From NCBI GenBank assembly GCA_040877935.1, contig JBBDNB010000048.1, forward strand, positions 62,001 through 126,000: DNA of 64,000 nucleotides, read 5' to 3'. Both the position numbers and the translations under genes were made by a program. Positions within the stretch are counted from its first letter, which is position 1; the number at the start of each line of letters is the position of its first letter. The DNA is from Chitinophagales bacterium. Lineage in GTDB: Bacteria; Bacteroidota; Bacteroidia; Chitinophagales; CAIOSU01. Below, piece by piece: positions 4,633 through 7,842 of the stretch. A model generated the notes under the pieces. It was not told the DNA's origin, searched no databases, and saw only the letters and a list, made by a program, of their open reading frames with translations.

Positions 4633-4713
4633 CTAAAGAATAATTACTGCAAGGTAGTATAAGTTCAGAAAATGTGCTGGGGTGTAGATTTTTTAAAATT
4701 TTGTATTCAAAAA

Positions 4714-4739
4714 TTCCAATGGGTCATGACCCATTGGAA
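4714..4739. repeat. Perfect 26-bp palindrome, copy 1 (terminator-like on the minus strand)
   Basis: The 26 bp are exactly self-complementary, with core CCAATGGGTCATGACCCATTGG. On the minus strand the palindrome is followed by TTTTTG, so it could act as a terminator for the decayed toxin-antitoxin operon at 4824-5116. The same core recurs at 5219-5254 on the other side of that operon. Confidence 0.8.
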
Positions 4740-4823
4740 GACTCATTGGAATAATAGTAACTTTTAATTTCTCTTGTTTTGGTCGGATGCGGTCACAATT
4801 TACGACCGTATGTCTTTCTCTAT

Positions 4824-4883
4824 TTACATGTAATTAATCTCTTCCTGTCTTGCCCTTAGCGAATATCTAATTTCGAAAGGCAT
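4824..4883 (-). pseudogene. 5' stub of a RelE/ParE-type toxin gene
   Basis: Directly after the antitoxin, its TGA stop overlaps an ATG (TGATG coupling). From that ATG the minus strand reads MPFEIRYSLRARQEEINYM and then a TAA. This resembles the first strand and helix of RelE/ParE-family toxins, which commonly begin with a short hydrophobic strand, then S-x-x-A-x-x-E-I/L. Nothing after the stop, in any minus-strand frame I read, continues a toxin. The downstream 80 bp to the palindrome is AT-rich and has no reading frame. The toxin therefore seems inactivated and mostly deleted. The family call rests on only 19 residues plus the antitoxin context. Confidence 0.6.
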
Positions 4884-5116
4884 CAGAAATTGTATTTAGC
4901 TTCGATAGCATCTTTCACACTTTCATGTGAGACATATTGGCCTTTATCTAATTGTTCCAGACCTTCATTAATTGCAGCTTTGTCAAGATCATTCAGCTCA
5001 TCCCAAATGTCTGGGCTTTTCTTTTCAAATACTTCTTTGAGCTGCTGCAAGATTTCAACTTCATTGGTATTGAGCAATAAGTGTATTAACTTGATTTTTG
5101 TAGCTTGAATGTCCAT
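4883..5116 (-). CDS. Orphan antitoxin, addiction-module component family
   Basis: A 77-residue acidic protein that matches the pattern of the addiction module component family: an N-terminal helix with LLLNTNEVEILQQL, then a central WDEL motif, an EGLEQLDKGQ motif, SHESV, and a short charged C-terminus. Such proteins neutralise RelE/ParE-like toxins and usually sit directly upstream of them. Here the toxin frame that overlaps the stop codon is broken after 19 codons, so the antitoxin is an orphan locally. It could still counter related toxins elsewhere, for example the RelE-type protein at 45631-45963. That last point is speculation. Confidence 0.72.
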   Translation of the reverse strand: MDIQATKIKLIHLLLNTNEVEILQQLKEVFEKKSPDIWDELNDLDKAAINEGLEQLDKGQYVSHESVKDAIEAKYNF

Positions 5117-5218
5117 GATTAAACGGCTTTTAATTAAAATTACAACGTAAGTTCACATCGATAGGGTTTCCTTTTATGAAATTAGTGAAATGGCTTTAAA
5201 AATTCATTATTTATAAAC

Positions 5219-5254
5219 TTCAGTTCCAATGGGTCATGACCCATTGGAACTGAA
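5219..5254. repeat. Perfect 36-bp palindrome, copy 2 (between kmo stop and the antitoxin)
   Basis: The core is identical to the palindrome at 4714-4739, but the self-complementarity extends 5 bp further on each side, giving 36 bp. It starts 13 bp beyond the kmo stop codon on the minus strand, so it may form the kmo operon's terminator hairpin, although no clean T-run follows. The two copies bracket the antitoxin and the toxin stub. Confidence 0.8.
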
Positions 5255-5267
5255 AGAATCGTTTTCA

Positions 5268-6614
5268 TTAATTGCCAGTATTGACCAACTCATTGAATAT
5301 TTTCTCTAAAATTTCATCAGCCTCACCCCTATCAATTTTCTCGACAATCTCTTTCAAATTATTCTTCCTGTTTTGAAAATAGCGATTGTACTGCTGTCCT
5401 TTTTGCCAGGCTTCTGAATAGGAGACATCGCTAAAGGTTACGAGTGAATACATGGGTTTGAAATCATTGGGGTATTTTTCCTGAATGGCTTTTTCAATCT
5501 TCTTTTGCAAAAGGAATTGTTCATCGGCCACCAAATCGCGCATTTCAATGAAATTGTGCAGGGCCAAATCAGCAATGGCATCACCATCGGGTTTGCGCAT
5601 TTGTCCAAAAGTATTGATCATCTCCGGCCATTTTTCGGAATTATTTTCCCACATTTCATCCAACAGATAACAATCTTCAAAACCGGCATTCATGCCCTGT
5701 CCGTAAAAGGGCACAATGGCATGTGCCGCATCGCCCAGCAGGCAATATTTATCGCCATAGGTCCAGGGGAAACATTTAACTGTTACCAGACTTGAAGTCG
5801 GATTTTCAAAAAATTCTTCTGTCAAATGCGGCATTAAAGCTTTAGCATCGGGAAAATATTCCTCAAAAAAAGCATTGACCGAAGCTTCATCTTTCAACTG
5901 CTCAAATGAAACAGAGCCTTCAAAAGCGAGGAACAGCGTACAGGTAAAACTCCCATCCTGATTGGGCAGGGCAATCAACATAAACTTTTTGCGCGGCCAA
6001 ATATGCAGGGCATTATTCTCCATTTTAAAACTGCCATCTGCATTGGGCTTAATGCTCAGTTCTTTGTAGCCATGCGCCAGATATTTTTGCTCATAATCAA
6101 AGCGGTCGGTACGCTGCATGGTGCTTCGAATGGCTGAAAATGCGCCATCAGTGCCAAAGACCAAATCGTAATCAAGCGATTTTCCATCAACCAATAATTG
6201 CAAATTGTCCTTATCAAATCCTTCGCAAGGCTGCTCAAAATGGAAATTGACATTCTCCAACTTTTCGGCATTTTCCACCAGCAATTTATTCAATCCGCCC
6301 CTTGAAATGGAATTGATAAACTCACCTTCCCTGCCATAAGGCTGCAAATGTGTGCTGCCGTCCAATTCGTGAATGAGCCGTCCATGCATGGGAATGGCCA
6401 TTTTTTTCACCTCCTCCAGCAAGCCTACTTTTTCCAGTGCTTTCAATCCTCTTCTGCTCAGTGCCAAGTTGATGGAACGACCTGAGTCTGCTCCTTTTTT
6501 GCGCATATCGGGCCTGCGTTCGAAAACATCCACAGCATATCCTTTTTGTCCGAGAAATAAGGTCCACAGCGACCCCACCAATCCTGCTCCTGTAATGGCT
6601 ATTTTTTTACGCAT
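5268..6614 (-). CDS. kmo: Kynurenine 3-monooxygenase
   Basis: This FAD-dependent hydroxylase converts L-kynurenine to 3-hydroxykynurenine with NADPH and oxygen. The 448 residues fit the family. The N-terminus has the Rossmann motif (ITGAGLVGSLWTLFL) and the conserved GRSINLALSRRG segment of KMO. The second FAD motif is CLLGDAAHAIVPFYGQGMNAG, the usual KMO form. The C-terminal portion is more hydrophilic than in eukaryotic enzymes and shows no obvious membrane anchor. It overlaps kynU by 8 bp and is the last gene of the kynurenine operon. Confidence 0.96.
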   Translation of the reverse strand: MRKKIAITGAGLVGSLWTLFLGQKGYAVDVFERRPDMRKKGADSGRSINLALSRRGLKALEKVGLLEEVKKMAIPMHGRLIHELDGSTHLQPYGREGEFINSISRGGLNKLLVENAEKLENVNFHFEQPCEGFDKDNLQLLVDGKSLDYDLVFGTDGAFSAIRSTMQRTDRFDYEQKYLAHGYKELSIKPNADGSFKMENNALHIWPRKKFMLIALPNQDGSFTCTLFLAFEGSVSFEQLKDEASVNAFFEEYFPDAKALMPHLTEEFFENPTSSLVTVKCFPWTYGDKYCLLGDAAHAIVPFYGQGMNAGFEDCYLLDEMWENNSEKWPEMINTFGQMRKPDGDAIADLALHNFIEMRDLVADEQFLLQKKIEKAIQEKYPNDFKPMYSLVTFSDVSYSEAWQKGQQYNRYFQNRKNNLKEIVEKIDRGEADEILEKIFNELVNTGN

Positions 6615-7842
6615 TAATCTTGTTTATAATTTTTGCAAACTGTCTCACTTCCTCTTCCGTATTGTACATGGGCACTGGTGCCACGCGAATCACATTGGGC
6701 TCTCGCCAATCAGCAATTATGCCTTGTTTGCGCATTTCCTCAAAAATCTTTTTGCCGTTTTTACCCGTCAAAATCGATAGCTGACACCCTCTTTGTCCCG
6801 GATCTTTGGGCGTAATGATTTCAAGACCTGGATTATCCTGAATCAATTGTTCCAACAATCCGGTCAATTGTAGGCTTTTAACCCTTAGTTTTTCCATACC
6901 CGCCTCATTAAACAATTCCAGCGAAGCTTTGTGCGCAATCATATTAAAAACCTGCGCATTGCTCAATTGCCAACCGGCTGCGCCTTCCTGTGGCACAAAT
7001 CCCTTTTTCATTTTAAAACGCTCGCTTTCGGCATTGCCCCACCATCCCGCGAAGCGTGGCAACTCCTTGTTCTTACCGTGTTTTTCGTGCACAAAAACGC
7101 CCCCCACCGCTCCGGGACCGCTGTTTAAATATTTGTAGGTACACCACACGGCAAAATCCACCTGCCAATCGTGCAATTGCAAAGGAACATTTCCGGCAGC
7201 ATGGGCCAAATCAAATCCGGCCAATGCCCCTGCCTCATGCGCAGCTTTGGTGATGGATTTTAGATCGAAAAATTGCCCGGTATAATATTGTACTCCGCTG
7301 AACAAAACCAGTGCTAGCTCTTCTTTGTGCTTATGAATTTCATCCAAAATATCCTCGGGGCGCAGGCAATGCTCGCCTTTTCTTGGCTGCACTTCAATCA
7401 CTGCATCATCATAATCGTAGCCGTGAAATTTCACCTGACTTTCCACCGCATATTGATCGGAGGGAAAAGCCCCTGCTTCCATCATGATTTTGTAGCGATT
7501 CCCTTTGGGGCGGTAAAAGCTGACCAACATCAAATGCAAGTTGACCGAGAGGCTGTTCATCAGCACCACTTCTTTTTCCTTTGCCCCCACAAGCTTGGCT
7601 GCCCCTTTGAAAAAATGATGGTATTTAAACCAGGGATTCTGTGCATTGAAATGTCCTTCTACACCCAAATTTTTCCAGTCTTCCAGCTCCTGTCGAATTA
7701 AATATTTGGTGGATTTGGGCTGCAATCCCAGAGAATTTCCACAAAAATACACCAGCTTTTTTCCGTTTTCACGGGGAATATGAAATTGATCGCGCATACT
7801 GAAATTCTCCCCCTCAGTCTTCTCAATTTTTTCTTCAGACAT
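6607..7842 (-). CDS. kynU: Kynureninase
   Basis: A 411-residue PLP enzyme that cleaves 3-hydroxykynurenine to 3-hydroxyanthranilate and alanine. The PLP lysine motif is TYKYLNSGPGAVGG, and the upstream FDLAHAAGN holds the cofactor Asp. YFCGNSLGLQP near the N-terminus is also typical. Its start codon abuts the stop of the unknown secreted protein gene (TAAATG), and its 3' end overlaps kmo by 8 bp. This arrangement points to translational coupling within one operon. Confidence 0.97.
   Translation of the reverse strand: MSEEKIEKTEGENFSMRDQFHIPRENGKKLVYFCGNSLGLQPKSTKYLIRQELEDWKNLGVEGHFNAQNPWFKYHHFFKGAAKLVGAKEKEVVLMNSLSVNLHLMLVSFYRPKGNRYKIMMEAGAFPSDQYAVESQVKFHGYDYDDAVIEVQPRKGEHCLRPEDILDEIHKHKEELALVLFSGVQYYTGQFFDLKSITKAAHEAGALAGFDLAHAAGNVPLQLHDWQVDFAVWCTYKYLNSGPGAVGGVFVHEKHGKNKELPRFAGWWGNAESERFKMKKGFVPQEGAAGWQLSNAQVFNMIAHKASLELFNEAGMEKLRVKSLQLTGLLEQLIQDNPGLEIITPKDPGQRGCQLSILTGKNGKKIFEEMRKQGIIADWREPNVIRVAPVPMYNTEEEVRQFAKIINKINA

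Follow-up and report, generated by a model that had tools for sequence, protein, structure and literature searches.

Dispersed palindromes in a Chitinophagales genome

The window analysed here, a 64-kb stretch of contig C48 from a genome of the order Chitinophagales (G000; 4.03 Mb, 63 contigs), contains a remnant of a toxin–antitoxin (TA) module placed between two palindromes, and the question raised by this locus is what the palindromes are and whether they belong to the module that they enclose. The answer that we consider very likely is that they resemble repetitive extragenic palindromic (REP) elements, are members of a dispersed family, and have an IS200-like Y1/HUH transposase domain as their cognate enzyme.

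The two palindromes, located at positions 4714-4739 and 5219-5254 (no strand assigned), are real and perfect, with lengths of 26 and 36 bp, and contain an identical 26-bp core (CAATGGGTCATGACCCATTG), as stated in a preliminary description of the locus. They are the two longest perfect palindromes in the window, the next longest being 16 bp, and a search with the 22-bp core allowing up to three mismatches found two sites in the window versus none in 100 shuffles. Both regions fold into hairpins as single-stranded DNA (z-scores -5.1 and -8.6, respectively). At 4740-4752, again with no strand assigned, the right palindrome arm is present once more in degenerate form (GACTCATTGGAAT).

A search of the whole genome revealed 20 exact sites for TGGGTCATGACCCA and none for the reversed control pattern. 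The 20-bp core is present at 19 identical sites and, with up to three mismatches, at 29 sites, making about 30 copies with variants, and half-sites alone are rare. The copies are distributed over many contigs and are mostly intergenic, all but one being outside open reading frames (ORFs) according to crude gene calling. The core was found in none of 60 relatives from the same family, and the palindromes had no Rfam match above the gathering score. The exact core was not found in IMG/VR, and a viral origin is not supported. The perfect, loop-less structure of the palindromes argues against integron attC cassettes. Composite copies were observed at loci L033, L037, L038, L040, L042, L044, and L020, where the palindrome is followed after about 40 nt by a second hairpin, centred on AGATGACATCTTT or AAAGATGTCATCT and likewise dispersed.

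A restriction enzyme with a nested Y1 domain

On contig C55 a variant palindrome is located in-frame within an ORF of 1261 aa, with one copy just upstream of this ORF and four downstream. Pfam analysis identified the domains Eco57I, N6_Mtase, TaqI_C, and Y1_Tnp (IS200-like) in its product, the PADLOC profile PDLC03609 matched its N- and C-terminal parts with a score of 1094 bits, and the motifs DPACGSGAF and NPPY are present. As judged by Pfam and PADLOC, nuclease, N6-methylase, and specificity parts are combined in one chain; the ORF is a predicted type IIG restriction-modification (RM) enzyme with a Y1/HUH domain. The nested Y1 domain of this protein is likely the cognate enzyme of the palindromes in this genome, since the palindrome sequence is shared.

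The insertion site could be defined from enzyme relatives lacking the Y1 domain. The distance from GNSLI to NPPY is exactly 40 aa in 17 such relatives, versus 207-244 aa in five nested examples, and in the five Y1-bearing enzymes 167-204 additional residues separate the ...F(P)xVF segment from GGFDVVIGNPPY. Y1-less and Y1-bearing enzymes coexist within the order, and the single genome G371 contains one gene of each kind.

The DHxH (HUH) motif and the tyrosine are invariant in alignments of the Y1 domain. Since the structural model of the whole RM-Y1 protein had a predicted template modelling score of only 0.40, we used only its Y1 part, for which the predicted local distance difference test (pLDDT) values were mostly 80-92. 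The closest folds to the Y1 model (pLDDT 83.6) were the TnpA proteins of ISDra2 and IS608, and the RAYT structure 4er8 was matched with an E-value of 1.3e-3; a search against PDB sequences also gave a match, with an E-value of 1.7e-6. The Y1 domain is thus predicted to adopt a HUH fold with conserved catalytic residues.

Downstream of the RM-Y1 gene on C55 there are near-identical tandem units of 182 bp (L017:6965-7380), each combining a CAAGGGGTCATGACCCCTTG palindrome with a duplicate of this gene's 3' coding end. A second RM-Y1 gene of the genome, reaching past the contig end, was found on contig C12 (L029, L063), and its palindromes have different centres, GTTGAAAC and GATTAATC. Contig C43 carries a gene for a stand-alone Y1_Tnp protein of 183 aa (L026:1270-1821) with the motifs NHIH and YIHQNP, resembling those of the Bacteroidetes subclass 2.6 in the survey of Y1 transposases (PMC6006769).

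Palindromes accompany the Y1 domain across genomes

With the Y1 domain as a query, matches were detected in 11 of 398 genomes of the order, at one or two places per genome, either nested in the same kind of enzyme or encoded by a stand-alone gene (180-195 aa). The Y1 loci of the order bear palindromes of the same design, each locus with its own centres. In a single scan covering 84,980 species the set grew to 66 Y1 loci, from Bacteroidota, Ignavibacteria/Chlorobiota, Spirochaetia, Syntrophaceae, and other lineages, and in about three quarters of cases the Y1 ORF has restriction-enzyme flanks. Using the rule CAA[G/T]GG N8 CC[A/C]TTG and allowing the arms to differ at no more than one position, we found 150 palindromes at 59 of the 66 loci, while shuffled sequences and the reversed control contained none. 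Among perfect palindromes, the centre was identical in 69% of pairs within a locus versus 11% of pairs between loci.

The association is also evident at the level of whole genomes. At least five palindromes were present in 8 of the 11 Y1-containing genomes of the order versus 5 of the 387 genomes without Y1 (Fisher p 1.4e-11, a value that exaggerates the number of independent events because the genomes are related, although the positive genomes represent three families). On the basis of this genome-wide and locus-level association, the palindromes can therefore be read as REP-like and the system as RAYT-like. Restriction-enzyme ORFs with about six to ten in-frame palindromes were observed at loci L120, L132, L136, and L137, several of the positions being matched between genomes.

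Several observations weigh against the assignment of the palindromes to a REP-like family mobilised by this Y1 domain. Five genomes without the domain, in particular G222 and G296, are rich in palindromes but have no close Y1 protein (G222, G146, and G192 lack a Y1 of this kind, and G026 and G296 contain only a distant one). Conversely, genome G128 has the Y1 domain and not a single palindrome of the strict pattern; a shorter palindrome, AGGGGTTGCAACCCCT, is present at the gene. The best scores of the Y1 domain against the NCBIfam models REP_Tyr_transpos and transpos_IS200 were 46 and 41 bits, below the cut-offs of 80 and 55 bits, respectively. The canonical GT[AG]G foot of REP hairpins is missing except for GTAG beside one of the 30 listed copies, and about 30 copies is a low number for a REP family. 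Within the genome G000 itself, the nested Y1 domain on C12 or the stand-alone Y1_Tnp protein on C43 could serve as the cognate enzyme instead of that on C55.

Alternative explanations for the palindromes

One reading offered in the preliminary description was that a mobile unit carrying the TA module ends in the two palindromes; such a unit, small and perhaps cassette-like, would fit the bracketing of an antitoxin gene and a toxin stub by two identical 26-bp cores. The search for other modules bracketed in the same way, which it recommended, instead revealed that nearly all exact and variant copies, at many intergenic sites on many contigs, have no TA gene, a pattern that the preliminary description itself had named as refuting its reading. 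Antitoxin and toxin profiles identified a second TA pair near just one other copy, on contig C8, at a distance of about 1.3 kb and not bracketed; pairs or clusters of copies on contigs C42, C11, and C55 are free of TA genes, and the flanks of the two window copies have nothing in common outside the core. A mobile TA unit, rejected on account of the copies without a TA gene, thus appears extremely unlikely.

Perfect dyad symmetry and an identical 20-bp core at 19 mostly intergenic sites would also be expected for the operators of a dimeric DNA-binding regulator, in which case the copies would delimit a regulon. However, copies are also found at the 3' ends of genes and between genes in convergent orientation (by a crude ORF method, 13 arrangements are tandem, 8 convergent, and 3 divergent), within coding sequence, and in tandem arrays, and across phyla their centres are tied to the locus of the Y1 gene present there, so that we consider operators unlikely. 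It is still less probable that the palindromes are transcription terminators sharing their sequence by chance. Both window copies are located 3' of minus-strand genes, and the copy at 4714-4739, directly followed by TTTTT on the minus strand, scores as a terminator and may for this reason also terminate transcription. However, a T tail is missing from the copy at 5219-5254, the count of terminator-like sites was one versus 1.0 expected, termination does not require a 20-bp identity at 19 sites, and there are copies located in-frame in genes. Termination may be a secondary effect of the REP-like palindromes, as with REPs.

The toxin–antitoxin remnant

The module enclosed by the palindromes proved to be much as it had been described. 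The antitoxin-like ORF at 4883-5116 (minus strand) is intact, encodes 77 aa, and is an orphan at this locus. It is followed at 4824-4883 (minus strand) by a frame of 19 codons, MPFEIRYSLRARQEEINYM, which overlaps it through TGATG and ends in TAA. The 77-aa protein had no convincing Pfam match, and its NCBIfam matches were weak, RelB/ParD being matched with an E-value of only 0.031, below the cut-off of that model. Its homologues were more informative: matches were found in 47 of 299 genomes of the order, including the present one, and most of them overlap with a subsequent ORF, about 96-101 aa long, that resembles ParE/RelE (the type was judged by eye from the sequences). The ORFs of toxin type after the antitoxin homologues therefore indicate that the 77-aa ORF most likely encodes an antitoxin, the stub marking the place of a former toxin, consistent with a decayed TA module.

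The stub bears a weak resemblance to the N-termini of RelE/ParE-type toxins, a likeness on which the preliminary description had made its reading depend. The stub scored 0.3 bits against a profile of the partner toxins, being too short for a clear match, and in a matrix of toxin N-termini 9 of the 1156 19-mers of the window that start with ATG scored as high, as did 1 of 211 TGATG sites, presumably the stub itself. No further toxin pieces were detected in any frame of 4701-4900. In type II TA systems (RelB/ParD with RelE/ParE), antitoxin genes like the homologues found here precede overlapping genes of ParE/RelE type and an intact adjacent toxin is expected, whereas the window locus has the 19-codon stub instead; the toxin was probably lost through ordinary decay. 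The antitoxin might have been retained in an anti-addiction role, the other possibility raised in the preliminary description. The position of the remnant between two palindrome copies is most likely a coincidence, and such chance placement is made likelier by the clustering of copies on C42, C11, and C55.

The palindrome at 5219-5254 directly follows the 3' end of a minus-strand gene (5268-6614). The region 5268-7842 contains two adjacent minus-strand genes which, as judged by eye, resemble those for kynurenine 3-monooxygenase and kynureninase.

Relation to known systems and biological implications

The system is most readily compared with subclass 2.4 of RAYT/TnpA_REP, known from Cyanobacteria and Bacteroidetes, in which each Y1 gene likewise has its own palindrome sequence (PMC6006769). 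However, the Y1 domain described here usually resides within a restriction enzyme of type IIG, and it is characterised by the motifs DH[VMIL]H, W[STA]Q, and Y[IV]xxN[RK]xKH, in contrast to NH[IFV]H, WQ, and YIxNNP in subclass 2.4; this signature matches none of the TnpA_Y1 subclasses tabulated in that work. RAYT hairpins carry GT[AG]G at the foot, unlike the palindromes found here, although the described subclass 2.6 and class 3 lack this foot as well. Judging from these motifs, the RAYT-like system is distinct from the described RAYT subclasses. The survey left out unusually long (fusion) proteins, and the words restriction, Eco57I, and methyl are absent from its main text (PMC6006769).

The TnpA proteins of IS200/IS605 elements (ISDra2 and IS608) are the nearest relatives with solved structures, and also the nearest by sequence, with the DHxH and W[ST] motifs in common. 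These elements are multi-copy insertion sequences with left and right ends, whereas no such whole unit was seen here and the multiplying element is the palindrome alone. Known type IIG enzymes (PADLOC PDLC03609) have the same N- and C-terminal parts, to which about 170-200 Y1-bearing residues are added here before GGFDVVIGNPPY. Rickettsia palindromic elements are also inserted in-frame inside proteins. We know of no cognate HUH enzyme for them. Neither the nesting of Y1 in an RM enzyme nor this palindrome was reported in the literature searched, which excluded supplementary files and most subscription journals.

Binding, cleavage, and mobility of the palindromes by the Y1 domain, as well as a role of the fusion, are what we infer from these comparisons. 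The most probable course, one already suggested for REPs, is that the Y1 domain acts on single-stranded hairpins and thereby moves or copies the palindromes. By analogy with TnpA_REP and IS200/IS605, a palindrome exposed in single-stranded DNA, for example on the lagging strand, would fold into a hairpin, the HUH/tyrosine site would bind it and cut beside it, and copies would be moved or copied in trans. Hosts would retain such copies chiefly between genes, or in-frame within protein loops, and the restriction enzyme may help to retain the Y1 domain in the genome. A more doubtful extension, which we regard as possible but rather unlikely, is that the RM and Y1 parts form one working unit, in which the RM half would make the gene hard to lose, the Y1 half would spread or maintain its own palindromes, and the palindromes could serve as marks read by the enzyme. 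If so, a single chain would unite restriction addiction with a domesticated transposase of the REP type.

The pattern CAA[G/T]GG...CC[A/C]TTG provides a search rule for this palindrome family in Bacteroidota, and REP-like palindromes are frequently located in-frame in proteins. How RAYT genes persist without multiplying themselves is an open question (PMC6006769). Here, a restriction enzyme that is possibly hard to lose contains, in several phyla, a Y1 domain of RAYT-like character immediately ahead of its catalytic NPPY motif, and since Y1-bearing and Y1-less versions of the same enzyme exist, the question of RAYT persistence becomes testable.
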